Source: Bradymonas sediminis (GTDB lineage: Bacteria; Myxococcota_A; Bradymonadia; Bradymonadales; Bradymonadaceae). Taken from it: a stretch of 64,000 nt of DNA. Below are positions 6,122 to 52,074 of this stretch, piece after piece. The stretch lies in the NCBI RefSeq assembly GCF_003258315.1, contig NZ_CP030032.1:348001-412000 (forward strand), written 5' to 3'. Under the pieces are notes generated by a model. That model was not told where the DNA came from. It did no database searches and worked only from the letters and a program-made list of their open reading frames with translations. The translations under genes were made by a program, and so were the position numbers. The number at the start of each line of letters is the position of its first letter. The stretch's first letter is position 1.

Positions 6122-6580
6122 TTATTTGGAGGCGGGCTGGGTGATCACGAGGTTGACGGACTTAAATCCGCTCTCTTTGATCTGGTCGAGGATCTCGATG
6201 ACCTTGCCGTGGGTGGCGAGTTTGTCGCCGCGCAACAGCACGTTCGCGTCGGGGTGTTTGGCGTATAGATTCGCGAGCTTCTCGCTCAAATTGGCGCCTT
6301 CGATCTGCTCACCGTCGAGCACATTACCGGGGTCTGCGGCGTCGCTTTTGATCTCGACCGAGCCGTCTTCGGTGATGAAGAGCACGATCTTCTGGGCGTC
6401 CGAGATGGCCTCGCCGCTGGCTGCGCTGGGCAGGTTGATGGGGATCTCGGCGTCTTCGGTTTTGGAGAAGGTGCTGGTGACCAAAAAGAAGATCAGCAGC
6501 AAGAAGACTACGTCGATCAGCGGCGTCATATCGAGGTCAACGGTGACGCGCCGGCTTTTTCGCATGTCGCGCAAACTCAT
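6122..6580 (-). CDS. exbD: ExbD/TolR family biopolymer transport protein
   Basis: A 152-aa protein with the ExbD/TolR layout: basic N-terminus, one membrane helix carrying the proton-relay aspartate (DMTPLIDVVFLLLIFF), and a periplasmic domain ending in a helix and the strand SVNLVITQP. It forms the stator of a proton-driven motor together with ExbB. Its ATG overlaps the exbB stop by four bases, indicating translational coupling. Homologues energise TonB uptake, Tol-Pal, and in myxobacteria the AglRQS gliding motor; the sequence alone does not say which. Confidence 0.9.
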   Translation of the reverse strand: MSLRDMRKSRRVTVDLDMTPLIDVVFLLLIFFLVTSTFSKTEDAEIPINLPSAASGEAISDAQKIVLFITEDGSVEIKSDAADPGNVLDGEQIEGANLSEKLANLYAKHPDANVLLRGDKLATHGKVIEILDQIKESGFKSVNLVITQPASK

Positions 6581-19229: not shown

Positions 19230-19299
19230 CCACCGCACACCGCAACGAAGCCCACTCGGCTTTGAGGCGGCGAGTTCGGACTCTAGAGAAAGAGCTCGT

Positions 19300-19372
19300 G
19301 CGTTGGTAGCTCAGTCGGTAGAGCACGGCCCTGAAAAGGCCGGTGTCGGCGGTTCGATTCCGTTCCAACGCA
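19300..19372 (+). tRNA. tRNA-Phe (GAA anticodon)
   Basis: A full cloverleaf can be drawn: acceptor arm GCGTTGG with CCAACGC, D-arm GCTC/GAGC, anticodon stem CGGCC/GGCCG with loop CTGAAAA (anticodon GAA), a five-base variable loop, and a T-arm with TTCGATT. The discriminator base is A and the 3' CCA is not encoded. It has its own promoter and terminator and is monocistronic. Confidence 0.95.
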
Positions 19373-19404
19373 TTATTGATGCGCTTTAAGAGTGTATAAA
19401 GATT

Positions 19405-19629: not shown

Positions 19630-21357
19630 ATGATCGATAAGAATGGCCTTGAGTCGAGTTGGTTCAAATCGGGAAGCACCGGCGGAGTGCGCCGTCTCAG
19701 CGTAGCGCTGGCCACCCTTGGGGCGGTTGGCGCATTTGCGTTCGGCGCAGCGGGTTGCGATACCGCCGCGCAAATCAGCTTCTCGTCACGAACCTTTCAG
19801 GAGATTCACTCCTCCGGGTTTACGGCAGCGCCGGGGACCTGCGGTGGCGTGAGCGGCGGCGAGATGAAGGCACGCTTCGTGCTCGTCGATAATAAGAACG
19901 CGCCGATTATGGTAGGCGACGCGATCGACCGGCCCTCGAGCGGATCATCCGCCGTGGAGCTGGACTCGAACTCGGTCGCCTTCAGTGACGGCGCGCTGAT
20001 GGAGGTCACCCCTGGTGCCTGTGACGACGGTGGCTCTTGTCCATCCTCGTCGATCGGCTTTCAGTGCAAAGATGCGCCGAACCTGCAGGGCGCCCCGGGC
20101 GGGCAGAGCTTGAAGTCCTGCCAGATTCCGGAGGACGGCCTGTCGGTCGCCGCCGCTGCGTCGGGCGTTGAGTTTGTCTCCGACACCACCAATGACCAGG
20201 TTTACGGTATTCTCATGGAGAATAGCGGCGGGCTGAAGGGCTGGAGCCTTCCGGGCACCACCGAAGCCTGGGACGCCAACGGAAACGGCGTCGTCGGCGA
20301 CCCGGATGACCTCCCGGCCTTCGGCGTGCTTTACGGTGATACCATCGCATCCGACCCGCGTAATAAGCGAGTTCAGGGTGTCGTGAACGCCTATACGCGT
20401 TGGGTATATGCCTATCAGCTTGCGCGCAAGACCAAGCGCAAGACCTATTTCGGTCTCTGGAGCTTCAACGATAGCGAGTTCAAGCCGACCTCGCATATCG
20501 AGAACGTCGGTCGCCCGGGGTTCCCGTGGGCTTCCGAGTCGACCCCGATCACCGGCGCCATCAGCGACTACCAGAACTCGGCGATCAACGACCGCAGCCG
20601 CGCCAACGTCTACGAGGCAGCGCTCGCGCTCCTCAACGGTCCGTATTCGGACCAGGCGATGACCGACCTCGGCGTCGCCTCGCCCGCCACGGTCGACAAG
20701 GTCTTGGTGATGTTCGTCGACGGTTATGACGATATGCGCGAGAACGACAACTCCGACATCGATAAAGTCGTCGACGCCGCGGCCGCCAACAATGTTCGCA
20801 TCTTCATCGTGCACGTTGACCCGGCGTTCCAGGAGCCCCACCAGATTCGTGAGGACCCGGAGTATTGGAAGGGGCAGACCCCGTGCACCGACGATAGCAC
20901 GTGCAAAAATTACGAGACCTGCCGTAACCCCAAAGGTTACGGAACCGGTGTCGGCACCGAGGTCGAGAAGCCGGAAGGTTTCGACAATACCTACTGCCTG
21001 CCGGCGCGTGACGAAAACGGTCGCGTTGGACCCATCGAAGATTACTCGCGCCTCGCTTGCGCGACCGAGGGTGGCTATATGTACTCGCCGTCCATCGATT
21101 CGGTTGTGCGCAATATGGACTGGACGCCCTATGCCCTTGATGGCCTTTGGGAAGCAACGGTCACCTCGGCGACGATGAACCGAAAGGGCGATTTGGCGGG
21201 CATGCCGCTTAAGATTCACGCCGATATGGGTGTCACCGTTGCTGGCAAGTCCCGCAACTACCCCTTCACCCAGATGGGTCGTCCCAATAACGTCGACGCC
21301 AACGCGACCATCGACGCGTTTGATACCCGCGGTGTGATCTTCGTGGCCGACGAGTAA
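19630..21357 (+). CDS. CglB-like Cys-rich VWA-domain lipoprotein (candidate adhesin)
   Basis: A 575-aa exported protein. A hydrophobic signal ends in FGAAGC, a plausible lipobox (C43). The mature part is Cys-rich and contains a von Willebrand A-like fold: first strand ILMENSGGLKG where DxSxS would sit, strand YFGLWSFNDS, then VLVMFVDGYDD (D364), a helix and VRIFIVHVDP. A Cys-rich insert (TPCTDDSTCKNYETC) follows. This layout recalls CglB, the VWA lipoprotein adhesin of Myxococcus gliding. The gene leads the Glt/Nfs-like cluster, with the first barrel gene about 160 bp downstream on the same strand. The ATG at 19630 is preferred to 19546, which would put a long basic stretch before the signal. 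CglB identity is inferred from architecture and context. Confidence 0.65.
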   Translation: MIDKNGLESSWFKSGSTGGVRRLSVALATLGAVGAFAFGAAGCDTAAQISFSSRTFQEIHSSGFTAAPGTCGGVSGGEMKARFVLVDNKNAPIMVGDAIDRPSSGSSAVELDSNSVAFSDGALMEVTPGACDDGGSCPSSSIGFQCKDAPNLQGAPGGQSLKSCQIPEDGLSVAAAASGVEFVSDTTNDQVYGILMENSGGLKGWSLPGTTEAWDANGNGVVGDPDDLPAFGVLYGDTIASDPRNKRVQGVVNAYTRWVYAYQLARKTKRKTYFGLWSFNDSEFKPTSHIENVGRPGFPWASESTPITGAISDYQNSAINDRSRANVYEAALALLNGPYSDQAMTDLGVASPATVDKVLVMFVDGYDDMRENDNSDIDKVVDAAAANNVRIFIVHVDPAFQEPHQIREDPEYWKGQTPCTDDSTCKNYETCRNPKGYGTGVGTEVEKPEGFDNTYCLPARDENGRVGPIEDYSRLACATEGGYMYSPSIDSVVRNMDWTPYALDGLWEATVTSATMNRKGDLAGMPLKIHADMGVTVAGKSRNYPFTQMGRPNNVDANATIDAFDTRGVIFVADE

Positions 21358-21515
21358 ACCCGGCTTAACCCGCGCGCTCCGACTCGGTGGCGCGTGGGCG
21401 GTTTGTGTTTTGGCACAGGCTGACCGGGGAAGCCCGGCGCGATATCTTTTTCGATTTTGACTAATTGTTGATTCTTAGAAAGCTTTCGAGTTTTCGGCGT
21501 ACGCAGGAGATAGTG

Positions 21516-22268
21516 GTGCAGTCTCACTCCCATTCATCCAAAATTATCAGCCTCTTCGTCTTCGCGGCTTTGCTCGCGAGCGTGGCGCCAGCGATGGCTC
21601 AAGAGCCCGCGGCGGATCCCGCCGGGGCGGCCGACGCTAACGCCCAGGATACCCGCGAGGAAATTGACCCGAATGATCCGCTCTTCTGGGCCAAAACTCG
21701 CGATATCTTCACCGTCCAAAAACGCCCCTTCCAGAAGGAAGGCCGTTTCGCGGTGAGCGTCTACGGCGGCATCATTCCGAATAATATTTTCGAACAATAT
21801 TATCCGGTTGGCGTGCGCGTTAACTACTATATCCTCGAGAATATCGGTCTGGAGCTCGCGGGCTCCTACGCCTTTAAGGTCGATACCGGGCTGTCGGATA
21901 CGATCCAGACGCTCGACCGGGACGTGCCGGCGCCGCTGATCGGCGACCGCCAGGTCTCCCACAGTAACTTCGGGGTCGTTTGGAGCCCGTTTTACGGGAA
22001 GACCTCGTTCTATAACTCGGCGCTGAGCTATTTCGACATGTACGTCTTCGGCGGAGCCGGTCTGGTTATTACCCAGACCCAGCCCGATTACGGCGACGAG
22101 ATTAGTACCGAGGCCAAGCCCGAGGGCGTCTTGGGCGCCGGGCTTGCGTTCTATCTCGGCGATCATGTCTCGATTCGCGGCGACTTCCGACAATTTATTT
22201 TCCAGAAGGTCACCGGAGGAGTCGCTAATCCTTCCGAGGCTTCGCTGGGACTCGGTTGGTTCTTTTGA
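21516..22268 (+). CDS. Myxobacterial-type outer-membrane beta-barrel protein 1
   Basis: A 250-aa protein starting at GTG 21516 (or 21513), with AGGAGA five bases upstream; the ATG at 21465 is too far from a ribosome site. The signal peptide is cut after PAMA. A short acidic linker leads to FTVQKRPFQKEGRFAVS, the entry to the barrel in the family of outer-membrane barrels typical of myxobacteria, and the protein ends in LGLGWFF with a terminal aromatic. In Myxococcus such barrels form the outer-membrane part of the Glt gliding and Nfs spore-coat machines. The next barrel gene begins about 50 bp downstream, so the two are likely subunits of one complex. Confidence 0.8.
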   Translation: MQSHSHSSKIISLFVFAALLASVAPAMAQEPAADPAGAADANAQDTREEIDPNDPLFWAKTRDIFTVQKRPFQKEGRFAVSVYGGIIPNNIFEQYYPVGVRVNYYILENIGLELAGSYAFKVDTGLSDTIQTLDRDVPAPLIGDRQVSHSNFGVVWSPFYGKTSFYNSALSYFDMYVFGGAGLVITQTQPDYGDEISTEAKPEGVLGAGLAFYLGDHVSIRGDFRQFIFQKVTGGVANPSEASLGLGWFF

Positions 22269-22315
22269 TGATGATGAACCGTCCAAAATATTCGATTTGT
22301 AAAAGGTTAGCAGTC

Positions 22316-23191
22316 ATGACTTTGCTTCCGTACCCAGAACGCTCGGCCCAGACTCGCCGGCGACTCCGCACGCTGATGATGGCGCTGCTTGTTGGGGGCC
22401 TGCTCTCGGTGAGTGGAAACGCATTCGCCCAGGACGACGCCGCAGAAAACGACGTCGATGCCGTCTCGGCAACCTCCGATGACTCCGCCGAAGAGGCCGC
22501 CGCGCCCAGCGCGCCGGTGCTTCAGCTCGCCGGCGGCGATCGCAGCGCGATTGAAACCAAGATGGACTCCTTCTGGTCGGTGAAGAAAGATCTTTCATCG
22601 GTCGAAGGGCGAAAATATACCCGCGAGGGTAAGTTTCGCGCCGGTCTTTATACCGGTATCCTCTCCAGCCAGCCCTTCTATTGGTATATCCCGGTGGGGC
22701 TGCGCGCGACGTATTTCCTCAGTGATAACTTCGGTGTCGGCATCGAGGGCTCCTTCTCGGGCGCCACGAGCTTCAACACCGAGTTGAGCGATTACCTCGA
22801 AGGAGCCCGCCCGACGGACTTCACCGAGGCCAAGAAAGAGGACCGCTTCCTGTGGCGCGCGCACGCCGTCGCCACCTGGCACCCCCTCTACGGCAAGCTC
22901 GCCTTCTTGCAGCGCAAGTTGACGCATTTTGACCTCAACCTCGTTGCAGGGCTTGGCGCCGTTGGTGTCGACCGCCCGAACGCTGTCCAGACCCAGGTCG
23001 ACGGCGCGGTGGCCCCCGAGCTTCTGCTCGGCGGTGGCGTTGATATCTTCTTGACCGAGAGTGTCACGGTGCAGCTCGATGGACGTTTCTATATCTATCA
23101 GGCCGCCGAGAACGACATTAATAACGGCGACTTCTTCCAGAGCCTGGATGCGCCCTCGGAGTTTTTATTGGGCGTCTCGTACCTCTTTTAA
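22316..23191 (+). CDS. Myxobacterial-type outer-membrane beta-barrel protein 2
   Basis: A 291-aa paralogue of the preceding barrel. It has a signal peptide with an Arg-rich start and cleavage after NAFA, an acidic Ala/Ser linker, then YTREGKFRAGLYTGI, the same barrel entry motif, and the C-terminal strand LLGVSYLF ending in Phe. ATG 22316 with AAAAGG nine bases upstream is preferred; the frame also contains three ATGs overlapping the stop of the first barrel. Paired barrels of this type (GltA/GltB, NfsA/NfsB) are a hallmark of the Myxococcus machines. Confidence 0.78.
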   Translation: MTLLPYPERSAQTRRRLRTLMMALLVGGLLSVSGNAFAQDDAAENDVDAVSATSDDSAEEAAAPSAPVLQLAGGDRSAIETKMDSFWSVKKDLSSVEGRKYTREGKFRAGLYTGILSSQPFYWYIPVGLRATYFLSDNFGVGIEGSFSGATSFNTELSDYLEGARPTDFTEAKKEDRFLWRAHAVATWHPLYGKLAFLQRKLTHFDLNLVAGLGAVGVDRPNAVQTQVDGAVAPELLLGGGVDIFLTESVTVQLDGRFYIYQAAENDINNGDFFQSLDAPSEFLLGVSYLF

Positions 23192-23333
23192 GAGCGTATG
23201 ACTTGAAGACGTCATTTTCTATCGCTTCCCCGACCGCGCGCCCAATGCGCCAAACCCACGCCGCAAATGCGTGATATTGTTTAAGGGCGCGCCCGGGTGA
23301 GCAGTTACTGCAGCAAAACATACAGTGGTGTCT

Positions 23334-25304
23334 ATGCGAACGGACAATAAGCAAATCAATTCGGGCAACTCTCAACGTAGCGGGCGTTTCGGTCGGATCA
23401 AACGCGGTCTTGCCTGTCTACTGGTCGCCGTAGTCTGCAGCGTGCCGGCGATTGACGCCTCTGCGCTTGATAAGAACCAGATCGTCCAGATGACCAAGCT
23501 GGGCATGCAGGCCGGCGCCATCAAGGGCGCGATCGACGGCGCGGGCACCGATATGAAGCTCAGCGCCGAAGATATCGGCGAGCTGCGCGCCGCCGGTGTG
23601 GACGAAGAGGTCATCGAATACCTCGAAGCCACCGGTCACGCCGAGTCGACCGTCGAAGAGGCACCGGTTGACGCGCCCACAGGACCCGCTCCGGCCGACG
23701 ACGGCGCCGGCCCGTCGCCTGCGCCCGCGCCTGGCGCCGAAGAAGAGGGCGAGACCCTCAGCCAGGAAGAGCTCGAGCAGCGCATCTCCGAGCGCGCTGA
23801 GCAGCTTAACGCCGAGAAAAAGGCCGCCGCTGAGCGCGAGCAGAAGATCGCCGCCGAGGCGCGCAAGCTGCCCAACGCCAAGCGTATGCTCGCCTCCGGC
23901 GACAATATGGGCGCGGCCCGCATCTACCTGAAGTTCATCGATATGGGCCCGGATATGGCCTCCGATGAGTGGTATGAAGCGCAATTTGGCCTTGCGAGCG
24001 CGTTGTACGGCGAAGGCATCCTGTCTGGCGCCGCGCTTCCGCTGCTCGACGTCATCATGGCCGGCCCGCAGCGCACGCATTTCAAGAAAGCGTTCGGCAT
24101 GCTCAAAGAGCTGACCAAGCGAATTGGTTTCCAGCCGCCGATGCTTGAGGAGATGACGAAGTTCTATATCGGTGACATGAACCAGGATTTCAAAGATGAG
24201 TTTAACTACTATCTTGGGAAGTTCTTCTTCGACTACGGCCGAAATGACCTCGCCATCGATTACCTGAGCAAGGTCAGCAACAAAGCCAGCGATTACCCCG
24301 AGGCGCTCTATGTGATGGGCATAGCTCAGCTCGGCCAGCAGGCCAAGATGGGCGAGGCGCTCAAGAACTTCGAGCGCGCGATCATCGCCGGCGAGAACGA
24401 GCCGGGCGGTAATGAGGAGATTCTGCAGCTCGGGTATCTCGCCCTCGCGCGCGTCTTCTACGAGGTCGGCTATTACGACGTCGCCCTGTATTATTACCAG
24501 AAGATTCCGACCGATACCTCGCGAAACGCCCGCGCCGCTTTTGAGACGGCCTGGACATATTTCGTGAAAAACGATTATAAACGGGCACTTGGAGCTTTTC
24601 ATACGCTCCATAGTCCGTATTATGACGACTGGTATTTCCCGGACCTCTATATCCTGGAATCCACCGTTTACCTGAACCTCTGTGATTTCCAGAAGAGTAA
24701 GCAGGCGCTGGCGAAATTCCAGACCGACTATCTCGACCCGCAGCCGCGGCTGGATAAATTCCTCACGGAGACCACCGAGCCGAGCGAGTATTGGAAGGCG
24801 ATTGTGGAGTATTACTCCGACAAATCACCCAAGGGCGAGAAGGCTTTGCCCGAAGTGTTCGTCAGCCCGGTATTGGCCGACCTCGGTTTCCACCGCCTTT
24901 ACGGCGTGATTCGCACCCTCCAGGCAGAGCGTAACGCGCTCAAAGCCAATATCTCCACGCTCGGTGAGTTTGGAAATACGGTCCTGGGTGGGGTAGAATT
25001 GCAATTGCAGACCAAAATCGAAGAAGGTGGGATTTTGGTTCAGCAAAAGCTCAGTCAGGTAAATAAAGAGCTCCAAGATTGGGATATCAAGGCCACCCAG
25101 ATCTCCTTTGATATCGATAGTGAAGAGAAGAATCAGCTTCAGGCGAAACTTCTCAACCAAAACGTTCAGCAGGGGCCCCAACAGGGAACGTCGCTGCTGG
25201 TCGTAGCCGATGACTTTACTCCGTGGCCTTTCGAAGGCGAGTATTGGAGCGACGAGGTCACCAACTATCGTAGCCAACTGCAATCACAGTGCGCACCGGA
25301 ATAA
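23334..25304 (+). CDS. Exported TPR protein of the Glt/Nfs-like cluster
   Basis: A 656-aa protein with a signal peptide ending near DASA, an N-terminal helical segment (IVQMTKLGMQAGAIKGAI), an Ala/Pro/Glu linker with a coiled coil (about 100-185), then a long array of TPR-like helix pairs (for example YPEALYVMGIAQLGQQAKMG). The C-terminal 130 residues are helical without clear repeats. It is expected in the periplasm, where large TPR proteins of the Glt machine bridge membranes. No good Shine-Dalgarno sequence precedes the ATG at 23334; a GTG nine bases upstream is possible. A terminator-like hairpin lies downstream. Confidence 0.78.
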   Translation: MRTDNKQINSGNSQRSGRFGRIKRGLACLLVAVVCSVPAIDASALDKNQIVQMTKLGMQAGAIKGAIDGAGTDMKLSAEDIGELRAAGVDEEVIEYLEATGHAESTVEEAPVDAPTGPAPADDGAGPSPAPAPGAEEEGETLSQEELEQRISERAEQLNAEKKAAAEREQKIAAEARKLPNAKRMLASGDNMGAARIYLKFIDMGPDMASDEWYEAQFGLASALYGEGILSGAALPLLDVIMAGPQRTHFKKAFGMLKELTKRIGFQPPMLEEMTKFYIGDMNQDFKDEFNYYLGKFFFDYGRNDLAIDYLSKVSNKASDYPEALYVMGIAQLGQQAKMGEALKNFERAIIAGENEPGGNEEILQLGYLALARVFYEVGYYDVALYYYQKIPTDTSRNARAAFETAWTYFVKNDYKRALGAFHTLHSPYYDDWYFPDLYILESTVYLNLCDFQKSKQALAKFQTDYLDPQPRLDKFLTETTEPSEYWKAIVEYYSDKSPKGEKALPEVFVSPVLADLGFHRLYGVIRTLQAERNALKANISTLGEFGNTVLGGVELQLQTKIEEGGILVQQKLSQVNKELQDWDIKATQISFDIDSEEKNQLQAKLLNQNVQQGPQQGTSLLVVADDFTPWPFEGEYWSDEVTNYRSQLQSQCAPE

Positions 25305-25340
25305 GTGTGCTGGCTTGAAACAGGCTTGGCTTCGGAAAGT

Positions 25341-25367
25341 GGACGCATCTCTGGTGCGTCCGTTTTT
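25341..25367 (+). terminator. Intergenic terminator or attenuator inside the cluster
   Basis: GGACGCA and TGCGTCC form a 7-bp stem with a seven-base loop, followed by GTTTTT. It lies between two same-strand TPR genes, so it may reduce read-through to the downstream genes. Confidence 0.65.
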
Positions 25368-25402
25368 CGCATTCTGAAATCTGCGAATCAACAAGGCTCA
25401 AA

Positions 25403-28400
25403 GTGTATAAAGCGATGAATCCTATAAAAACCGGCAAGCGTGTTCTCTCCCTCCTGTGCGTGATGTCACTGTCGGGAATGGCGGTCACCGCCTCGGCCCA
25501 GGATATCACCAGCGGCGCCAAAAAGGACCGCGTCTCCGCGGATGCTAAGGCCGACGCCGTCAAGCGTGCCGGTGACCTCTCCAAGCGCCTCGACCAGGAT
25601 AAAACCGTCGAGGATAGCGGCCCCAAAGGCCCCGAAGCCAGCCTGAAAGAGTTTCAGGATGAGCAGCAGAAGATGACCCCCGAGCAGATCGAAGAGCTTA
25701 AGCGCCAGATCAGCGCCAAGAATAAGCAAATGATCGCCAAGCTCGACCGGATCATCGCGGGCGACCCCTATAACGAGCAAAAGCCCGAGTGGATGTTCCA
25801 GAAGGCCGAGCTGATGTGGGAAGTCCAGCACACCGAATACCTGCGCGCGCGCGCCGAGTATAACCAATGCCTGGGCGCCGAGGACCAGGGCACCGCAGAC
25901 TCCTGCAAAGAACCCGCCCCGGAGTACGCCGAGCCGCAGGCCATCTATAAAGAAATTCTGACCCAATATCCCGCCTACGACCGCCTCGACCAGGTCATCT
26001 ACCGCCTCGGCGACGGACTTATCGAGGACGGCAAGGGCGCGCAGGCCGTCAGCTACCTGCAGCGACTGGTCAAAAATTACCCGAACTCCAAATTCCTGCC
26101 GGACGCGCACCTCGCGCTCGCCGAGTTCTTCTTCAAGCAGGAGTTGCTGGGCGCCGCGCGCGATAATTACGAGGCGGTCCTGAAGTTCGAGAGTAACCCG
26201 AACTACGACTTCGCCCTCTATAAGCTCGGCTGGGTTTTCTATAACCAGGGCGAGTACCGCAAGAGCGTCGACACCTTCAAGGCGGTCGTCGAGCGTACCG
26301 ATGAGAAGCTTGGCTTCCAGAAGCAGGCGATCAACGACCTGGTCGTCGCCTATGCCGAGATTGACGACGGTTGGATGGAAGTCCGTGACTACCTGACCAA
26401 GCGCGTCGACATCGACTTCGCCTACCAGAAGCTCGGCCAGATGGCCGGCCTCTACGAGGGCCAGGGTAAATCCGACAAGGCCGTCGCGATCTACGAGTAC
26501 TTCATCGCCGAGCGTCCGGATCACCAGCGTATCCCGACCTGGATGGAGTCGATCATCGTCGCCAAGAAGACGATCAACGACTTCGATGATCTCGAAAAGA
26601 CGATGAACACCTATGTCGCCTATCTGGACCGGGATGGTACCTGGGCGCAGAAGAATAAAGGCAACGAAGGCCCGCTGAATAACGCCGATATGCTCTCGCA
26701 GGCGTCGCTGGCGTTCCTCGCCAACACCTACCACGTCCGCGCGCAGAAGGGTGATATCCAGCCCGATTACGTCAAAGCGGTCGACTATTATAAAGAGTTC
26801 ATCCGCCGCTTCCCCGAAGCGCCGGCGTCCTTCGACATGAACTTCTTCGTGGCTGATATCTACCTGGTTCAGCTCAAGGAATTCGAGAACGCCGCGACCT
26901 ATTATCAGAAGGTCGTCGACCTCTATAAGTCAGACAATGTTCCGGAAGGCGCTAAGAAAGAAGACGTCGACGAGATCGTGCAGGAGTCGGCCTTTGGTGT
27001 CGTGAGCTCCTATGACGCTCTGGTTAAGTCGAACCACCCGGACAGCATCCTGGTCCAGATGGCCGAGTACCAGAAGAAGTACGGCAACAAAGAGGTCAAG
27101 CGCGATAAGGTGGAGTCCGGCACCCAGTCCAAGCCCAACCCCAAGGTCGACCTGCTCAAATATGAGGAGGGCTTCGTTGTGGCGTCGGACCAGTTCTCCG
27201 AGATGTACCCGAACGAGGACGTCACCCCGACGGTCGACTACGTCTCCGCCGAGGTCTACAAGGCCCGTGGGCACTACGACCGCGCGATTCCGCGCTACGA
27301 GAGCATCATCGAAAACGCGCCGAAGCACCGCTACGCCGGCTACGCCGGTGGCAGCCTGCTCGTGTCGAATTACGTCCTCAAGAATTGGGACGAAGTCGAG
27401 AAGTGGGCGCGCTATATGATGGACAATAAGATCTTCCAGGTCACCCCGAAAGAAGACCTCGTGCAGGCCATCGCGCTTGCCATCAACGAGCGCGCGACCG
27501 AGCTCAAGGAAGCCAAAGAATTCGACAAGGCGACCGCCGAGCTGCTGCGTCTGGCCGAGGAATTCCCGAAATCCGACCTCGCCCCGGGCGCGTTGTTCAA
27601 CGCCGGTGCGATCTACGAGTCGGGTGACGACCTCAACAACGCCGTCGCCGCCTACGAGCGCGTCGTCAACGATTATCCGTCCAGCCGTCAGGCCCCCGAG
27701 GCGCTCTTCGTTATGGGCGCCATCTTCGAGGCCCGCGCGGACTTCGAGAAGGCCGCCGACTATTTCGCGCAGATGGGCTCGAATACCGAGTACGTCAACG
27801 AAGACGGCGACAAGATCGAGTATAAGAACCACCCGCAGGCCTCCGAGGCGGTCTATAACGCCGCGGTGCTCGACGCTGCCATGGAGAAATGGGGCAAGTC
27901 GATCGAGACCTTTGAGAAATATATTGCCCTCTACGGCCAGGACGAGAAGGAGGCCGAGCAGGTCAAGTCGGTTCGCCTGCGCCTCGGGTATCTTGAGATG
28001 GAGCGTAAGGAGCCGAAGGCCGCGCTCAAGCGCTTCCAGGACTATCGCAAGCTCAAGGATATCACCCCGGCAGAGACCGTGCAGGTCGACACCGAGTTGG
28101 GCCTGCTGACCGAAGAGATCAAGGGCCGCAATTGGGAGAAGATCTCGAACGACTACTTCACCGCAGCGCTCAACACCTGGAAGACGCTCGAGAAAGAAGA
28201 CCAGCTTAAGATGCGTTATTTTGCCGCGAATGCCCGCTTCCAGCAGGCCGAGCGCATCTATAACCAGTTCACCGAAGTGAAGCTGTCCTTCCCCATGAAG
28301 ACGCTCATCGCCGGCATGAAGAAGAAGGGCGCCCTGGAGCAAGAGGCTGAGGGTATCTATCTGGAGGTCCTTGAGTTCGGCAGTCCTCAGTGGATCGCGG

Positions 28401-28852
28401 CCAGTGGTTATCGGGTCGGTCAGATGTACCGGGACTTCGCCAAGAACCTGAGCGACCTGCCGATCCCCGAGGGGCTCAGCGAAGAGCAGGCGATGGATTA
28501 TCAGTGGACCCTCGACGAGCAAATCATGCCGCTGCAGGATAAGGCGCTGGCCGCCTTCCAGAGCGCGCAGAGGCGCGTCATCGAGAACCAGGCTTATAAC
28601 GAGTGGTCGCGTCTTTCCTCCGAGCAGATCAGCGCGATGGAGAGCGAGACCTACCCGATCACCGAGCAAGACGGCGTCAAAGTCGAGCACGCACGGATCA
28701 ACTTCTTCGTGCCCAAGCCGATGACCGATATGGACGCCATCGCCAAGGCTGTGGCCGAGCGCGAGGCTGCCAAGGTGCCGCCGACGCCCGAAGTCGCTCC
28801 GGACGCCACCGGTACGCCGGCTGGTGAGGCAGGCCCGCAGGCCAGCAAATAA
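25403..28852 (+). CDS. Giant exported TPR protein (GltI/AgmK-like role)
   Basis: A 1149-aa protein. GTG 25403 with AAGG six bases upstream is preferred to ATG 25415. The signal peptide is cut after ASA. Most of the mature chain is TPR-like, with repeated helix pairs such as YDFALYKLGWVFYNQGEYRKS and ALFVMGAIFEARADFEKAADY, giving roughly 15 or more repeats. The last 40 residues are Pro/Ala-rich. A long periplasmic TPR scaffold is a feature of the Myxococcus Glt machine (GltI/AgmK is much larger). Its place between other TPR genes and the AgmX-like gene supports the same structural role; this is inference. Confidence 0.75.
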   Translation: MYKAMNPIKTGKRVLSLLCVMSLSGMAVTASAQDITSGAKKDRVSADAKADAVKRAGDLSKRLDQDKTVEDSGPKGPEASLKEFQDEQQKMTPEQIEELKRQISAKNKQMIAKLDRIIAGDPYNEQKPEWMFQKAELMWEVQHTEYLRARAEYNQCLGAEDQGTADSCKEPAPEYAEPQAIYKEILTQYPAYDRLDQVIYRLGDGLIEDGKGAQAVSYLQRLVKNYPNSKFLPDAHLALAEFFFKQELLGAARDNYEAVLKFESNPNYDFALYKLGWVFYNQGEYRKSVDTFKAVVERTDEKLGFQKQAINDLVVAYAEIDDGWMEVRDYLTKRVDIDFAYQKLGQMAGLYEGQGKSDKAVAIYEYFIAERPDHQRIPTWMESIIVAKKTINDFDDLEKTMNTYVAYLDRDGTWAQKNKGNEGPLNNADMLSQASLAFLANTYHVRAQKGDIQPDYVKAVDYYKEFIRRFPEAPASFDMNFFVADIYLVQLKEFENAATYYQKVVDLYKSDNVPEGAKKEDVDEIVQESAFGVVSSYDALVKSNHPDSILVQMAEYQKKYGNKEVKRDKVESGTQSKPNPKVDLLKYEEGFVVASDQFSEMYPNEDVTPTVDYVSAEVYKARGHYDRAIPRYESIIENAPKHRYAGYAGGSLLVSNYVLKNWDEVEKWARYMMDNKIFQVTPKEDLVQAIALAINERATELKEAKEFDKATAELLRLAEEFPKSDLAPGALFNAGAIYESGDDLNNAVAAYERVVNDYPSSRQAPEALFVMGAIFEARADFEKAADYFAQMGSNTEYVNEDGDKIEYKNHPQASEAVYNAAVLDAAMEKWGKSIETFEKYIALYGQDEKEAEQVKSVRLRLGYLEMERKEPKAALKRFQDYRKLKDITPAETVQVDTELGLLTEEIKGRNWEKISNDYFTAALNTWKTLEKEDQLKMRYFAANARFQQAERIYNQFTEVKLSFPMKTLIAGMKKKGALEQEAEGIYLEVLEFGSPQWIAASGYRVGQMYRDFAKNLSDLPIPEGLSEEQAMDYQWTLDEQIMPLQDKALAAFQSAQRRVIENQAYNEWSRLSSEQISAMESETYPITEQDGVKVEHARINFFVPKPMTDMDAIAKAVAEREAAKVPPTPEVAPDATGTPAGEAGPQASK

Positions 28853-28948
28853 GTCCAGATGCTCGACTTGAAGCAGCCGTGAATCATGGGCGGCGGCGCC
28901 GTGTGCGCCGACGCCCGCAAAATGAGTGAACCATCGGGAAAGATACCC

Positions 28949-30256
28949 ATGAAGATACCGCAAAAATTGATGAGCCATCGCCTCAATAAACTCCTGGTCC
29001 CCCAACTCCTGCTCGTGGCCTTCGCTGGCGCGCAATTGGTCGCGTGCTCAAGCGCCCCGACCAAGGACGACAACCAGGTCGCCGAGCAGCAGAAAAAGGC
29101 CGAGATCGAGCTGCGCGCTGAGCAGATGGGCATGAGCGTCGAGACCGTCCAGGCATTTCAGGACGCCATCGAAGAGCTCGGAAAACCCGAGCCCGACCTT
29201 GAGAAGACCGAAGGTCTGCTGAAGTCGGTCGTCGCCGCGGAGCCCGACTTCGCCGAGGCGCATTATAACCTTGGCGTGCTTTACTCGACCCAGAACCGCT
29301 ACGATGAAGCCGTGACGCATATCGAGACCGCGCGCTCAATCGCCCCGGGTGAGCTCAGCCATACGGTCGCCCTCGCCCAGGCCTACGCGGTCACCGAGCA
29401 ATATACCAAGGCGCAGAACCTGCTCGAAGAGGTCATCGCGCGCCAGCCCACGAACCTGACCGCCAAGAATAACCTGGCCGTCCTCGCGCTTAAAGCCGGC
29501 GACGACGAGAAGGCGATGGAATACGTGCGCGACGTGCTTAAAGAGGACAATGAGAACGTCGGGGCGCTCAATTCGCTCGGGCTTATCTACGTCAAACGCG
29601 AGAACGCCTCGCTGGCCAAATACGTCTTCACCAAGGCGATTAAGCTCGCCGAGAAGAAGCCCGACCCCGACATCCATAATAACCTCGGCATGGTGTATAT
29701 GGCCGAGGACGAGGTCGCTCAGGGCGTTAAGCAATTTGAGGCCGCCAATAAGGTGGACCCGAATTACCTGGAGAGTCGTCTGAACCTGGGCTCGATCCTC
29801 ATCGAGTATCTTGACTATGAGCGCGCCGCAACTCAGTTTGAAGAAGCGGTTCGAATCTCGCCAAATAACTGCGTCGCCCACCTGGGGCACGCGGCGAGTA
29901 GCTTTGGCCTGGGTAAGGCCGAGGAGGCTCAGAAGGGGTTTGTCTTCTATGTCGAGAATTGCGACGCCGACCATGTCTCGAGCTTCGAGCGCCTGGCCAA
30001 GCTCAACGAGACCAAGCTCAATAACCCCGCCAAAGCCGCGGAGTATTACGAGAAGTTGATGACCCTGGTCGACGACGAGAAGAAGAAGGCCGGCTATAAA
30101 GCCATGGCTGGTTTCCTGAAGAATCAGGCGGAGAAATCCGACCAGAAGGAAGCCGCGCCGGTCGAGGACGAGCAAGCACCCGAGGATGACGCTCAAGCAC
30201 CTGAGGCCGACGACGCCGACGGTGAGCAAGCCCCCGCCGAAGACGCCGCTGAATAA
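28949..30256 (+). CDS. TPR lipoprotein (GltE/AglT-like)
   Basis: A 435-aa lipoprotein with lipobox LVAC (C33) and about six TPR units in the mature part (for example DFAEAHYNLGVLYSTQNRYDE and DIHNNLGMVYMAEDEVAQG). The last 50 residues are a disordered Glu/Ala/Asp/Pro tail. TPR lipoproteins such as AglT/GltE help assemble the outer-membrane part of the Myxococcus gliding machine. Upstream in-frame ATGs (28886, 28922) would place polar residues before the signal and are rejected. It lies about 100 bp after the giant TPR gene and about 100 bp before a small exported protein gene. Confidence 0.75.
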   Translation: MKIPQKLMSHRLNKLLVPQLLLVAFAGAQLVACSSAPTKDDNQVAEQQKKAEIELRAEQMGMSVETVQAFQDAIEELGKPEPDLEKTEGLLKSVVAAEPDFAEAHYNLGVLYSTQNRYDEAVTHIETARSIAPGELSHTVALAQAYAVTEQYTKAQNLLEEVIARQPTNLTAKNNLAVLALKAGDDEKAMEYVRDVLKEDNENVGALNSLGLIYVKRENASLAKYVFTKAIKLAEKKPDPDIHNNLGMVYMAEDEVAQGVKQFEAANKVDPNYLESRLNLGSILIEYLDYERAATQFEEAVRISPNNCVAHLGHAASSFGLGKAEEAQKGFVFYVENCDADHVSSFERLAKLNETKLNNPAKAAEYYEKLMTLVDDEKKKAGYKAMAGFLKNQAEKSDQKEAAPVEDEQAPEDDAQAPEADDADGEQAPAEDAAE

Positions 30257-30353
30257 GTTGCGCGCGGCTTAAGCCCGCGGGCGCGTTGACGCTCCGCGGG
30301 CCTCTCTGTTACTTTCGATGCAGCCGAAGTTTCCGCTCATTGAGGAGATGATT

Positions 30354-30608
30354 ATGCGAAAAACAATTGCGATCCTTTTTGCAATTACGTTTGTCCTGAC
30401 AAGCGCAACCGCCTTTGCCCAGGACAGCGGCGAAGCCCGTTCTAAATTCTATGACTTCGACGATATGCTCGTTGATGGTACGCTCAAGACGCCCGACCTG
30501 ATCAAGAACCAGGCGCGCGGTAAGGCTCAGTTTAAGCGTCTGCTTAATTTGAAGAAGAGCTTTATGCCCAATCTCGAGGAATCGGCCAACGAGGCCGCCC
30601 TCCAGTAG
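30354..30608 (+). CDS. Small exported protein of the Glt/Nfs-like cluster
   Basis: An 84-aa protein with a clean signal peptide (MRKTIAILFAIT, cleavage after TAFA) and a 60-residue mature part that is helical, mixed-charge and without cysteines (contains FYDFDDMLVDGTLKTPDLI). GAGGAG at 30342-30347, six bases before ATG 30354, fixes the start and rules out the longer frame from 30318. I do not recognise a family. It sits between the TPR lipoprotein and AgmX-like genes and is likely a small periplasmic component of the same machine. Confidence 0.7.
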   Translation: MRKTIAILFAITFVLTSATAFAQDSGEARSKFYDFDDMLVDGTLKTPDLIKNQARGKAQFKRLLNLKKSFMPNLEESANEAALQ

Positions 30609-30723
30609 AATATGCCAGCCGCCCGGCGTCGCCGGTTTCTGCCTGTCGGCGGAGCCCGACGCTGGGCGCAGTAGCGTTTCACCACTCGTAGTATTGTAAA
30701 CTCCGAAAGAGAGCTTAGTTACG

Positions 30724-32784
30724 ATGAAAATCGTTTGCGGAAGTTGTGGTGCGAAGTACTCCATTGCCGACGAAAAGGTCCAGGGCAAAGTCTTTAAAAT
30801 TCGTTGCAAGAAGTGCAGCAACGTCATCGTCGTAAAGGGGGACGCGCAACAAGAAAACGAACAGCCACAGAATTCTGTCGGGGATTCCAATCAGGCGGGT
30901 GCTTACGGCGCTGCGTCGACGGCATCGGAATGGTATGTCGTCGTTGATGGGAACCAGGTGGGACCGGTGTCTCCTCAGGAGATCGAAGGCTATTTCAGCG
31001 ACGGCAGCGTGACCGGCGAGAGTTTCGCCTGGCGCGAAGGTCTTGGCGATTGGGTCGCGTTGAGCTCGCTGGATGAGTTCGCCCACCTGGCCTCCCCCGC
31101 TGGCGCGGTCGGTGAGGACGCGACCGCGCTGATGGAGAGTCCATTGGCTGCGGGCAACTTCGACACCTCGGGCTTCGGTGATGGCTTCGGGGCCGACGAC
31201 GACGCGACTTCGCTTATGCCGGCTTCGGACTTTCGCGCGCAACTCGCCGCGAAAGAAGCCGAGGCCGAAGCGGCCGCTCAGGGCGGCTATGACATGGGCT
31301 CCGGGTTCGACTCGGGCGCAGCCTATGACTCGCCTGCGATGGACGCCCAGCAGGGTGGCTTCGGCGAGGCAGCCGCGGGCGGGTATGACGCCTTCGGAAG
31401 CAACGCGGACGCGGGCTACGACGCGAGTGGTTATGACGCGGCTGGCGGTGGCTTCGACGCGGGTGGCTACGACGCCGCCGGCGCCGGGTACGACGCGGGT
31501 GGCTATGACGCCGCGGGTGGCTACGATGCGGGTGGCGGATACGACGCCGCCGGTGGCTATGATGCGGGCGGCGGATACGACGCCGCCGGCGGTGGTTATG
31601 ATTCCTACGACGACGATTCCGCGAGTCAGGGTGGCATGTTCGCTGCCTTCGACTCGGGCGCCGACGGGGCGGACTCCGGTTATGACGGGTTTGACGGAGT
31701 TGGCGGCGATAGTTCAGCCGCAGCCGCGCCGGCCAATGATCTTATCGGTCAGCGAAACGAAAACTCGGTGCTCTTTAGCTTGAGCAGCCTTGACCAGGTC
31801 AGCGCCGTCTCCGGCGATTCACCCGAACCCGCCGCCGGCGGTGACGCGGGGATCACAGAAGGCTCGGGTCTGATCGATATTCAAGCCCTCGCCTCGGCTC
31901 ATAAGTCGATGAAGAACACCGGCGCCGCGGGCGCGGCAGGCCCGGGCGCAGGAGCCGAAGACCCCTTCGGCGCGGGCACCATGAGCATGCCCGCCCTGAT
32001 GCCGATGGGCAGCCACAAGAGCAATAAAGGTCTGATTATTGGCCTCGCGCTCCTGGGCGTCGTGCTTATCGTCGGCTTCGGTGTCGTCGGTTATATGCTG
32101 ATGAATAAAGATGAGCCGCAACCGACCGAGCGTATTATCGAGCGCGTGGTCGAGCGTGCCGTCCCGGCGGATGACTCCGCCGCGGCCAAGCAGGAAGCCG
32201 AAGCAGCTCAGGCCGCAGCTGCCGCTGCGAAGGCTGCCGAGGACTCCGAGAAGGACGACGAGGGCGCCGTCGCCGCTGCAGGGTCGGACGAAGAGAAGTC
32301 CGAGAAGGCAGCGCCTAAGAAGGCGGAGACGAAGCCTTCTTCGAAGCAAGCGGCTTCCAACACGAAGTCCAGCCCGGCGCCGGCTCCCAAGCCTTCGAGC
32401 CGACCCGCGAAGAAAAAGGACGACGATATCTTCGCGCTGCTGGACAAAAAGAAGGACGACAAGCCCGCTGCCGCACCCAAGCAAGCCGCTCCGAAAAAGG
32501 ACGTCCCGGAGAAGTTGAGCCGTTCGATGGTCAAGAATACCATCAGCAAATATAACGGTCGGGTTCAGACCTGTTCGAGCAATAATAACAAGAACAAATT
32601 GACCGGCACCGTGATGGTCAAGTTCAACATTCAGGAGTCCGGCCGCGTCAGCTCCGCGTCCATCTCGACCTCGAAGTTCAAAGGCACCGACGTCGGTACC
32701 TGCGTCGAGCGAGTGGTCCGCAGCATGAAGTTCCCGGAGACGCGCTCCTCCCTGCCGGTTAATTATCCCTTCGTCTTAAGATAA
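30724..32784 (+). CDS. AgmX/GltJ-like inner-membrane protein with zinc ribbon, GYF and TonB-like tail
   Basis: A 686-aa protein with a distinctive order: zinc ribbon (C5, C8, C28, C31), GYF-like domain (about 70-118, WYVVVDGNQVGPVS), a low-complexity section of Gly-Tyr-Asp-Ala repeats (about 190-300), one membrane helix (436-461), a Lys/Ala/Pro periplasmic linker, and a C-terminal domain (about 600-686, with TVMVKFNIQESGRVSSA and NYPFVLR) of the AgmX/PglI tail type. In Myxococcus, GltJ/AgmX uses the cytoplasmic zinc ribbon and GYF to contact the motor and MglA, and the TonB-like periplasmic tail to reach the outer-membrane platform. It closes the cluster before a bidirectional terminator. Confidence 0.88.
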   Translation: MKIVCGSCGAKYSIADEKVQGKVFKIRCKKCSNVIVVKGDAQQENEQPQNSVGDSNQAGAYGAASTASEWYVVVDGNQVGPVSPQEIEGYFSDGSVTGESFAWREGLGDWVALSSLDEFAHLASPAGAVGEDATALMESPLAAGNFDTSGFGDGFGADDDATSLMPASDFRAQLAAKEAEAEAAAQGGYDMGSGFDSGAAYDSPAMDAQQGGFGEAAAGGYDAFGSNADAGYDASGYDAAGGGFDAGGYDAAGAGYDAGGYDAAGGYDAGGGYDAAGGYDAGGGYDAAGGGYDSYDDDSASQGGMFAAFDSGADGADSGYDGFDGVGGDSSAAAAPANDLIGQRNENSVLFSLSSLDQVSAVSGDSPEPAAGGDAGITEGSGLIDIQALASAHKSMKNTGAAGAAGPGAGAEDPFGAGTMSMPALMPMGSHKSNKGLIIGLALLGVVLIVGFGVVGYMLMNKDEPQPTERIIERVVERAVPADDSAAAKQEAEAAQAAAAAAKAAEDSEKDDEGAVAAAGSDEEKSEKAAPKKAETKPSSKQAASNTKSSPAPAPKPSSRPAKKKDDDIFALLDKKKDDKPAAAPKQAAPKKDVPEKLSRSMVKNTISKYNGRVQTCSSNNNKNKLTGTVMVKFNIQESGRVSSASISTSKFKGTDVGTCVERVVRSMKFPETRSSLPVNYPFVLR

Positions 32785-32871: not shown

Positions 32872-34509
32872 CTATTCTTCGGAGTCCATCAGCCGCTTTA
32901 GGCGCTCTTGTTCGAGGCTCAGTCCGATGGTTGAGGCGTCCGCGACGGTGACGCGGCCCGGGGGGAAGCCCTTGGGTTTACGGATATATTTGGCGCGGGT
33001 GTAGGTGACGTCGATGAGCGTGTCGTTCTTGCCCTTCGAGAACCAGGCGGCAAGCGTCGCGGCGTCGAGGAGGTCTTCGTTCTTGAGCTCTTCTTTTCGC
33101 TGGTCCATGCGCAACAGAACATGAGAGCCAGCCCAGTCGCGCGCGTGAAACCACATGTCGCGCCCCCGCGCGATGCTCGTGCTGAGCGTGTCGTTGTCGG
33201 ACGCGCCGCGACCGACCATGATGACGTGGCCGTGAAAGCTGCGAAATTTGCGGTAGGGCACGCGCGCGGGCTTATCGCGCCCACTTTGCTGCTGGCGGGT
33301 GCGCTTGGGCTTGAGCGTGCCGGCGGCGATAAGCTCGGTCTCGAACGCCTCCAGGGCTTCGACCTGATCTTTTTCCTGGGCGGCGCGCTCTCGGATAAAT
33401 GCATCGCGCGCGTTGGGCGATAGCTGGGCGAGGGTGCGGGGCTCGTCGGCCGTGCCAAACGCCTCGGCTGCCTCGTCGAGTTTTTGCAGGGCATCGGCCA
33501 CCGCGTCTCGCAGCTCCATCGACTCCAGCAGCCGATCTTCGATCTGCGCGCGCGCGTCCTTAAGTCGCCGGTACTCGTGAAAATTATATTCGATATTTTG
33601 CTCAAGGCTCCACGACGGATCCAGCGCGATCTCAACTTCGGCCATGGACTCGTCGTAGAAGTCCACCACGCGCACCGACTTATCGCCGCGCTCCACCTTG
33701 CCCCACGCCGACTGCAATAGCTCCCCGCGCCGCCGAAACTCATCGGAGCTCTCGGCCCGCTCGAGGTCGCCCTCGATATGGCCGACCCGCCTGTCCAATT
33801 GCTTCAGGCGCTTTCGCAGGCGCGAACTCAACGCCCGGTGAATGGTCTCGAAATTCTGGGCGCTGACCTGGGTGCCGTAGTGCTCCTCAACCTTCGCAGA
33901 GCGCTCAAATTCGCCGGGGTCGAGCTCCTCCAGACCCCAGCGAACCTTCTGTCCGTAATCGCTATTCTGGGGCGCTTGGGGCGGTTGATAGGCCGAGCCG
34001 GGTTGGAGCACCCGTTCCCCGAGGGATTGACGCGATGCCTGCCCGATAATCATATCTTTGGCGTCGAGCAGATACCAATTGGGGTGCCGCCCGGTAAGCT
34101 CTACAACCAGCGCGACCGCCACGCGCGGCGCGCGCACCGGCGAATCCTCGGCGGCTAACTCCTCCTCATCGGGCTCCCACGCTGGGTCCACGGCCCTGAA
34201 GTCCATGCGCACAATCCGGTCGCCCTGCAATTGCGTGACCCGCTCAAAAAGGGCGCCTTGCAGCCAACGACGCAATTGCATCGTGAACGCCGTAGGTGTA
34301 GGCGGTTGTTGAGAGCGGTGGCGAATGAAATGAATTCGGGTCACCTGCGGTTGAGTACATAGGCAGAGGTAATGCGTATTGCCCGGCTCCCGAAGTTGTA
34401 AAATCCGCGTATGTGGATCGAATTCCAGCACACGTTGGACCACACCCCGCCCCGCGACGGCGTCGACTTCGGGGAGGATTAATTCGATTTCAGCGCGTGA
34501 TAAAGTCAT
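32872..34509 (-). CDS. rqcH: NFACT family protein (RqcH/Rqc2 homologue)
   Basis: A 545-aa protein with an N-terminal NFACT-N-like region, a central coiled coil (about 225-345) and a C-terminal NFACT-R (DUF814) RNA-binding domain with YRKFRSFHGHVIMVGRGASDN, MWFHARDWAGSHVLL and the closing PKGFPPGRVTV. RqcH binds split 50S subunits with stalled peptidyl-tRNA and adds C-terminal alanine tails that mark the chain for degradation. The length is usual for the family. It is convergent with the AgmX-like gene and has no linked quality-control gene in the window. Confidence 0.88.
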   Translation of the reverse strand: MTLSRAEIELILPEVDAVAGRGVVQRVLEFDPHTRILQLREPGNTHYLCLCTQPQVTRIHFIRHRSQQPPTPTAFTMQLRRWLQGALFERVTQLQGDRIVRMDFRAVDPAWEPDEEELAAEDSPVRAPRVAVALVVELTGRHPNWYLLDAKDMIIGQASRQSLGERVLQPGSAYQPPQAPQNSDYGQKVRWGLEELDPGEFERSAKVEEHYGTQVSAQNFETIHRALSSRLRKRLKQLDRRVGHIEGDLERAESSDEFRRRGELLQSAWGKVERGDKSVRVVDFYDESMAEVEIALDPSWSLEQNIEYNFHEYRRLKDARAQIEDRLLESMELRDAVADALQKLDEAAEAFGTADEPRTLAQLSPNARDAFIRERAAQEKDQVEALEAFETELIAAGTLKPKRTRQQQSGRDKPARVPYRKFRSFHGHVIMVGRGASDNDTLSTSIARGRDMWFHARDWAGSHVLLRMDQRKEELKNEDLLDAATLAAWFSKGKNDTLIDVTYTRAKYIRKPKGFPPGRVTVADASTIGLSLEQERLKRLMDSEE

Positions 34510-34722: not shown

Positions 34723-35517
34723 ATGAAGTTGTGGACCCCATTGCGCCGCGCGTCGGCGCTGGTATTGCTGACTGGCGCGCTGCTCTTTTCGGCGGCGCTT
34801 TCGTCCGGCTGCGCCGGCGTGAATGAGCGCGGCGAGGCTCCCCAGAGCGTTCAGGACGCCGAGTGGCACTATAAGATGGGCGCGGGGTATTTTGAGTCCA
34901 GCGAGATCCCGCTGGCGATGCGTGAATTGCACACCTCGCTGAAGCTCAACCCCCAGGAATACCGGGCGCATTATTTGCTCGGATTTATCTCGATGGGCCG
35001 GCGCAAATATCCCGACGCGATCAAGCATTTTAAGGCGACGCTCGAGATCAAGCCCGACTATCATTTCGCCAAGAATAACCTGGGGACGGTGTATTTGGCC
35101 CAGGAGCGCTGGCGCGACGCGGCGGAGCTCTTCGTGGAGTTGCTCGAGGAGCCGCTCTACCCGACGCCGGAGCTCGCCCACAATAACCTGGGCTGGGCGT
35201 ATTTTAATCTGCGCCGCTATCCCGAGGCGGCCGAGAATTTCAAGATGGCGCAATTTCTCAAGCCCAGCATGTGCCTGGCCTATAATAACCTGGGCCAGAC
35301 CTACGAGAAGATGAACCGCTCGGAGCAGGCGGTGAGCCAATACCGGCGGGCCCTACGGAAATGTCCAGAAGGATACGCCGAGGCACATTTTAACCTGGCG
35401 AAGTTGCTACAAAAACAGGGAATGACCGGCGCGCGCGAGCATTTCGAGAAATGCGTCCAGGCTCAGCCCGATTCCAACCTCGCCGAACGTTGTCGTCAGT
35501 ATTTACAGGTTCGATAA
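34723..35517 (+). CDS. TPR lipoprotein, PilW/PilF/Tgl-like
   Basis: A 264-aa lipoprotein with lipobox LSSGC (C30) and five to six canonical TPRs from residue 45 to the end (for example YRAHYLLGFISMGRRKYPDAI and CLAYNNLGQTYEKMNRSEQA). Length, lipid anchor and repeat count match PilF/PilW/Tgl pilotins, which help the type IV pilus secretin insert in the outer membrane. No pilus genes are seen in this window, and generic TPR lipoproteins look similar, so the pilotin role is tentative. Its stop codon directly abuts the ATG of the L,D-transpeptidase gene. Confidence 0.65.
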   Translation: MKLWTPLRRASALVLLTGALLFSAALSSGCAGVNERGEAPQSVQDAEWHYKMGAGYFESSEIPLAMRELHTSLKLNPQEYRAHYLLGFISMGRRKYPDAIKHFKATLEIKPDYHFAKNNLGTVYLAQERWRDAAELFVELLEEPLYPTPELAHNNLGWAYFNLRRYPEAAENFKMAQFLKPSMCLAYNNLGQTYEKMNRSEQAVSQYRRALRKCPEGYAEAHFNLAKLLQKQGMTGAREHFEKCVQAQPDSNLAERCRQYLQVR

Positions 35518-41577: not shown

Positions 41578-41921
41578 GTTGTGTTCGCGACGCCTCGTCG
41601 ATCCGTGACGCGATTCGTGACGCGATCCGCGGGCTCCCTACGCTTCGCTTCGGTCACCGCGCGGCTACAAGGCCCATGCTGCGCATGGTGGGGCGGCGTT
41701 CGATGGGTGGCGGGGCGGGCGAGACGCCCGCGGTCCGGGTGGGTTGGGGGGCGACGCGATCCGCGGGCTCCCTACGCTTCGCTTCGGTCACCGCGCGGCT
41801 ACAAGGCCCATGCTACGCATGGTGGGGCGTCGAGGCCGCGACGCCTAACCCACGGACGAAGCGAAGCGGAGTCCGGATTGGTAGCCGGGGGTGAGTCTCC
41901 TCGAAGCCCGAAGCTCGCGGG
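41578..41921. repeat. Repeat block 1: hairpin units (about 134 bp) and spacer element
   Basis: One full and one partial copy of a unit (starting near 41623 and 41757) whose core is GATCCGCGGGCTCCCTACG, ending in a small hairpin CCATGC-loop-GCATGG. From about 41843 a second element (TAACCCACGGACGAAGCGAA onward) leads into the 63-bp units. The same elements recur at 51.1-52.2 kb. Confidence 0.85.
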
Positions 41922-42044
41922 CGGCCTAAACTCGGCGAAACGCCCAAAACCATCATCGGGCAAGGAGCCCCCGGGGGCGGTCGAGCGGCCCAAACTCGCC
42001 GAAACGCCCAAAACCAACGTCGGGCAAGGAACCCTCGGGGGCGT
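41922..42044. repeat. Two 63/64-bp tandem repeats
   Basis: Two copies of a unit with CGAAACGCCCAAAACCA and GGGCAAGGAGCCCCCGGG. It is the same unit as the five-copy array at 52168-52480, with a one-base indel. Confidence 0.85.
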
Positions 42045-42066
42045 GTCGTATCGTCAAACACCCCCC

Positions 42067-42360
42067 GATGGCTCAAAAATGACGTCGAACGTGATTTTTT
42101 GGCAGGCCGATGGGTCAAAAATGACGTCGAACGTGATTTTTTGGCAGGCCGATGGGTCAAAAATGACGTCGAACGTGATTTTTTGGCAGGCCGATGGGTC
42201 GAAAATGACGTCGAACGTGGTTTTTTGGGAGGTCGATGGGTCAAAAATGACGTTGGACGTGATTTTTTGGGAGGTCGATGGGTCGAAAATGACGTCGAAC
42301 GTGGTTTTTGCGCCAGCGCGTGGCTTTGGAGGGACGTTGGGCGTGGTTTTGAGGGAGGTC
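42067..42360. repeat. 42-bp tandem repeat array A
   Basis: Six in-phase copies starting at 42067, 42109, 42151, 42193, 42235 and 42277 (GATGGGTCAAAAATGACGTC, then AACGTGATTTTTTGG), followed by a diverged copy. The unit equals 14 codons, so frames on both strands stay open throughout; no ribosome site supports translation. Confidence 0.92.
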
Positions 42361-51623: not shown

Positions 51624-51659
51624 GGGGTGTTGATGTGGAAAATGGGGCCTCATCGATTC

Positions 51660-52068: not shown

Positions 52069-52074
52069 ACGGGC

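Follow-up and report, generated by a model that had tools for sequence, protein, structure and literature searches.

A VWA lipoprotein gene heads a Glt-like operon of Bradymonas sediminis

Genes of the operon

We analysed a 64,000-nucleotide stretch (the window) of the closed genome of Bradymonas sediminis (5,045,683 bases), which contains an operon of eight + strand genes at 19630-32784 related to the Glt and Nfs trans-envelope machines of Myxococcus xanthus. The gene order is VWA-OMP-OMP-C-D-E-F-J, where VWA is a lipoprotein with a von Willebrand factor A domain, OMP an outer-membrane protein, and the letters GltC- to GltF-like and GltJ-like proteins. The intergenic gaps range from -13 to 133 bases. 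The operon lies between tRNA-Phe (19299-19373) on one side and a convergent NFACT-type gene (32872-34509) on the other, and promoter and terminator scans of it gave signals near background. A preliminary description of this DNA had reported eight same-strand genes for a VWA lipoprotein, two barrels, TPR proteins, a small exported protein and an AgmX/GltJ-like protein in this order, which was confirmed:

19630-21357, + strand: outer-membrane lipoprotein with a VWA domain and Cys residues, candidate adhesin, 575 amino acids; reading frame open from a GTG at 19546
21465-22268, + strand: OMP1, outer-membrane beta-barrel of the GltA/GltB type; TIGR04565 (OMP_myx_plus) 93.4 bits (cut-off 60), PF13505
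22256-23191, + strand: OMP2, outer-membrane beta-barrel of the GltA/GltB type; TIGR04565 82 bits (cut-off 60)
23325-25304, + strand: GltC-like periplasmic TPR protein; NF033756 (GltC) 212 bits, E 1.5e-62, most of the length covered (equivalog cut-off 450)
25403-28852, + strand: GltD-like large periplasmic TPR protein; TPR/YbgF matches, groups with GltD-position proteins in the type-2 clade described below (100/100)
28886-30256, + strand: GltE-like TPR lipoprotein; NF033758 (GltE) 110 bits, 1.2e-31 (cut-off 225), signal sequence ending in VAC
30348-30608, + strand: GltF/CglF-like small exported protein, 86 amino acids; NF033764 (CglF) 29 bits, 7.5e-7 (cut-off 90)
30724-32784, + strand: GltJ/AgmX-like inner-membrane protein; NF033761 158 bits (cut-off 450), NF033768 67 bits; PF13717, PF14237

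GltA/B-type barrels and homologs of GltC, GltD, GltE and GltF (CglF is GltF; PMC4488436) occur together in the operon, and an AgmX/GltJ match follows them. These results support the membership in the Glt/Nfs family proposed earlier. None of the four proteins compared with curated equivalog models (GltC, GltE, CglF and GltJ) reached its cut-off. The GltJ-like protein has the layout of GltJ, with a zinc ribbon, a GYF_2 domain, one transmembrane segment at about residues 432-462 and an AgmX/PglI C-terminal domain (myxo_SS_tail). In sequence comparison it matched both solved AgmX domains of M. xanthus, 7z3c (3e-10) and 7zok (1.3e-6). Its linker contains tandem GYDA-rich repeats of 18/36-base units (31410-31592).

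GltG, GltH, GltC and GltK had been described as missing. For GltC this was rejected by the NF033756 match of the protein at 23325-25304, while GltG (FHA plus AgmX/PglI tail), GltH and GltK were indeed not seen within the cluster. GltG, absent here, is encoded at a separate locus of the genome (NF033760, 2.2e-123).

The VWA protein carries both a lipoprotein signal and a VWA fold, as does CglB, the VWA surface adhesin of M. xanthus. Its lipobox is AAGC, and the Cys of the lipobox was invariant in 32/32 homologs. The AlphaFold model (pLDDT 78.5, pTM 0.84) placed the VWA domain at about residues 186-506, with beta strands on either side of it; within it, residues from about 419 to about 477 are Cys-rich. 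The protein has 11 Cys, and both its length and its Cys content are variable. The model matched a bacterial VWA protein (Z 21.4), the integrin alpha-M I domain (Z 19.4, 2.7 Å over 183 residues) and VWF A domains, and a profile of 32 homologs matched TRAP and integrin I domains (E 1.7e-4 to 6e-3). The predicted fold resembles that of the integrin I domain. The likeness to integrin I, VWF A and TRAP domains is one of fold only, at about 10-14% identity, and the metal-ion-dependent adhesion site (MIDAS) motif is found in the wider bacterial family, where its residues were conserved as D in 26/32, S in 28/32, S in 28/32 and the Asp of TDG in 32/32. The lipoprotein signal and the predicted integrin-I-like fold are in support of the candidate CglB-like adhesin of the preliminary description. 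Within the family the VWA protein diverges more than any other product of the operon, with a mean pairwise identity of 34% versus 43-55% for the others; such fast evolution is expected for a surface part. In some relatives the VWA gene is duplicated (L089, G013).

Two deep groups of Glt-like loci

A search of the family recovered the VWA protein from each of the other 20 genomes. The full gene order was identical in 10/10 same-family loci that were complete at both ends, the remaining loci being interrupted by contig ends and outside this count. The order is therefore not due to chance. In the phylum, the VWA profile (A2) gave remote matches in 60/379 genomes. Nearly all of the fetched matches adjoin OMP-C-D-E-F, which holds for families f2-f7 of the class as well as for families elsewhere in the phylum. 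Four had no cluster in the fetched stretch, three in family f6 (L161-L163) and one on a short contig (L165); those of f6 recall the lone CglB of M. xanthus. The preliminary description had named a VWA gene not conserved beside the cluster in relatives as an objection to its reading, and the gene turned out to be conserved there far beyond the taxonomic order.

A set of loci was also collected blind to the adhesin by a GltD scan of named genome contigs, which yielded 80 loci, none of them from M. xanthus but including one from the isolate Lujinxingia vulgaris TMQ2 (L174), a cultured species that has the operon. The loci were typed by profiles as type 2 (window-like C and D) or type 1 (C and D like those of C-D-E-F-G loci). 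For the VWA count, contigs used for the VWA model were excluded and at least 4 kb upstream of C was required. Type-2 loci had a VWA gene upstream of the barrels in 23/23 cases and type-1 loci in 0/15, although in the latter the profile could have overlooked a strongly diverged gene. Over all fetched loci the counts were 59/59 (some genomes counted twice) versus 0/17. One type-2 GltD (L235), from a lineage with an apparently broken-up cluster, had no VWA gene upstream. The VWA gene is linked to the type-2 lineage in a near-obligatory manner. The two types also differ after F, where GltG was found in 27/28 type-1 loci versus 1/41 type-2 loci, and a GltJ-like gene, by the same profile, in 23/41 type-2 loci versus 0/28 type-1 loci.

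The GltD phylogeny gave the same division. In a tree of 97 rows all VWA-bearing Glt-like loci fell into one clade (SH-aLRT 100). Eight rows with a label of no VWA fell there as well, almost every one of them cut by a contig end. Outside this clade there was at most one labelled row, a type-1 locus near an unrelated label. In a tree of 38 rows, type 2 formed one side of a branch supported at 100/100 and present in 200/200 bootstrap trees, with the window GltD inside it and outside the type-1 lineage. These trees were built without M. xanthus GltD, and as unrooted trees they do not say which type is ancestral.

The type-1 group holds a paralog from the same genome and reference loci from genome G058. 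G058 passes the curated equivalog thresholds for GltC (480 bits, cut-off 450) and CglF (100 bits, cut-off 90), and its locus continues to a very large TPR open reading frame and a GltJ-like one, as in M. xanthus G1. GltC of the Lujinxingiaceae type-1 locus scored 328 bits (window, 212), and the own-genome type-1 locus had a CglF score of 64 (window, 29). Because G058 passes both cut-offs and the type-1 proteins outscore those of the window, type 1 is closer to M. xanthus Glt/Nfs. These comparisons place the window locus in a deeply separated paralogous system that is sister to type 1 and occurs in many Myxococcota families.

The own-genome type-1 C-D-E-F-G locus lies at about 3.66-3.67 Mb. It shares paralogous C, D, E and F with the window operon; in contrast to that operon it has an FHA-containing GltG and extra tail proteins, and neither a VWA gene nor adjacent barrels. 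Its GltG (L042:7290-11316, genome about 3662.3-3666.3 kb) is followed by consecutive proteins consisting largely of AgmX/PglI C-terminal domains, one of which has two copies. Since this full locus coexists in the same genome, the idea of a compact or reduced Glt set was rejected. A streamlined complex is unlikely. The operon is a real, conserved system, a variant of the Glt/Nfs kind rather than a reduced M. xanthus Glt locus.

A third locus (about 2.854-2.867 Mb) has C-D-E-F-like genes, ExbB, two ExbD and G, and adjoins a polysaccharide-export-like region. A fourth (L037:12836-17979, about 2352.8-2358.0 kb) is a free-standing ExbB-ExbD-ExbD motor locus, which also encodes a small exported protein of GltF-like appearance and a protein of 964 aa in which a Ser/Thr kinase domain is fused to a GltG/AgmX-type tail. 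The genome thus has three C-D-E-F sets and two AglRQS-like motors (ExbB plus two ExbD), at 2.353 and 2.857 Mb. MglA is encoded by an mglBA pair at about 521.3 kb. ExbD-like and ExbB-like genes also lie in the window itself (6143-7284, - strand), about 12 kb from the operon; as only one ExbD was seen, this pair is of the Tol/Ton type rather than the AglRQS type.

A putative second adhesion machine

AglRQS is the motor of both Glt and Nfs in M. xanthus, and the two machines are paralogous (PMC12288465). CglB co-purifies with outer-membrane Glt components (PMC12288465) and is unmasked at focal adhesions, and GltJ is one effector of MglA (PMC12288465; PMC13104615). Compared with Glt (GltA-K) and its motor AglRQS, the window operon has homologs of A/B, C, D, E, F and J, and the genome has AglRQS-like motors and MglA. 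However, the operon belongs to the other GltD lineage, stays below every curated equivalog cut-off, lacks GltG, and includes the adhesin gene while the motor genes are elsewhere. With Nfs (NfsA-H), the spore-coat machine, it shares the A/B-C-D-E-F core but differs in having J and VWA, lacking G and showing no polysaccharide link. The VWA protein and CglB are both VWA-domain lipoproteins tied to barrels and GltC, the former by its operon and the latter by co-purification with outer-membrane Glt components; they differ in gene position, and the window protein has a degenerate MIDAS. A search for CglB candidates in genomes with type-1 Glt loci gave only weak, generic VWA-level matches and no mutually similar group. 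Adhesin, barrels and GltC, whose genes are linked here, correspond to the outer-membrane module that is physically associated in M. xanthus.

We propose that the operon probably specifies a second Glt-like trans-envelope complex, of type 2, which has a surface adhesin of its own and works like Glt-CglB. Homology of seven operon genes to Glt parts supports this proposal, as do the linkage of the VWA gene to type 2, the single type-2 GltD clade, the predicted fold and fast divergence of the VWA protein, the GltJ-like gene confined to type-2 loci, the motors and MglA in the genome, and the M. xanthus findings above. By analogy we infer assembly into one complex, surface exposure, adhesion, the choice of motor and surface movement. 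An AglRQS-like proton-driven motor encoded elsewhere, for which the free-standing set at about 2.353-2.358 Mb is the best candidate, would engage the GltJ-like inner-membrane protein, and the zinc ribbon and GYF domain of the latter could allow switching by a cytoplasmic regulator such as MglA. The C-terminal domain of the GltJ-like protein would hand the force on to the TPR scaffold in the periplasm (D, E, F, C), and this in turn to both outer-membrane barrels. The barrels would hold and expose the VWA lipoprotein, which may grip the substratum or a prey cell. B. sediminis glides weakly, a movement attributed to type IV pili, and Persicimonas caeni glides as well (PMC7188933).

Several observations speak against this proposal. 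The operon has neither a motor gene nor GltG. A GltJ-like gene is missing from 18/41 type-2 loci, in several other families, so J is not essential to type 2. The MIDAS of the window VWA protein is degenerate, with ENSGG instead of DxSGS and VDG instead of TDG, and metal-dependent ligand binding may therefore be lost or changed. Moreover, the gltD paralog clusters G3, G4 and G5 of M. xanthus have no effect on motility (PMC3169522); a paralog is thus not necessarily a machine for motility.

The complex could instead be a surface-transport machine like Nfs, which moves or winds a secreted polymer, with the VWA protein binding this polymer rather than the substratum. Glt and Nfs are, after all, paralogs on the same motor, and the type-2 complex has the same A/B-C-D-E-F core. 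But no polysaccharide genes lie beside the operon, the polysaccharide-export-like region adjoining the C-D-E-F-motor-G locus at about 2.854-2.867 Mb instead. Nfs has no J (PMC3169522), and no VWA gene occurs in the type-1 loci, among which the closer relatives of Glt/Nfs are found. We regard this explanation as unlikely. An attachment complex for contact with prey or other cells, with little or no locomotion and a VWA protein that is either pulled by a motor or displayed statically, would suit the contact that Bradymonabacteria require for predation (PMC7188933, PMC7460792), and also the fast divergence and occasional duplication of the VWA gene. Type 2 also occurs, however, in families of metagenome-assembled genomes without known predation, and for static display the GltJ-like protein and the other force-chain parts would be superfluous, which makes this rather improbable too. 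The TPR proteins match YbgF/BamD-type profiles and VWA domains function inside cells as well, as would be expected of a Tol-Pal-like envelope-maintenance tether or an assembly complex with the VWA protein as a periplasmic scaffold, not an adhesin. Such a role is very improbable, because the VWA product is the fastest-evolving of the operon and variable in length and Cys content, and its gene adjoins the barrel genes.

To explain how an Nfs-like envelope transporter turned into a gliding machine, Luciano et al. proposed a stepwise recruitment of parts, with gltJ present only from the ancestor of Myxococcales (PMC3169522). The type-2 Glt-like complex proposed here would be a phylum-wide sister machine. 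Since its operon begins with the VWA gene in every intact locus whose upstream region is readable, adhesin and barrels form one heritable unit, and type 2 offers a natural comparison for asking which parts make a trans-envelope motor complex an adhesion machine. More speculatively, and in our view doubtfully, Myxococcota may possess a pair of force-transmitting envelope machines, parallel and of ancient origin: the Glt/Nfs-like type 1, which has GltG, and type 2, which has a dedicated adhesin of integrin-like kind and in many lineages also GltJ. Bradymonadia would then have type 2 as their true adhesion-gliding machine, and gliding of M. xanthus would go back to a type-1 core that acquired adhesin and GltJ functions like those of type 2. 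The operon also provides genes with which surface movement can be tested in cultured Bradymonabacteria, predators whose gliding was ascribed to type IV pili. Our literature search found no paper describing a Glt locus in Bradymonadia; earlier CglB literature may already mention such synteny.

Neighbouring features

Directly downstream of the operon are genes for a TPR lipoprotein and an L,D-transpeptidase (34723-37806). In many relatives a TPR protein of about 260 aa is encoded at a similar distance downstream. Farther along the window, arrays at 41921-42309 and 51339-52474 contain an identical 42-base tandem-repeat unit and a related 63/64-base unit. Between these matching minisatellites, at 42.4-51 kb, lies a defence-like island, with genes for an MmeI-like type IIG restriction-methyltransferase, a DEAD-box helicase and a T5orf172 nuclease-like protein.

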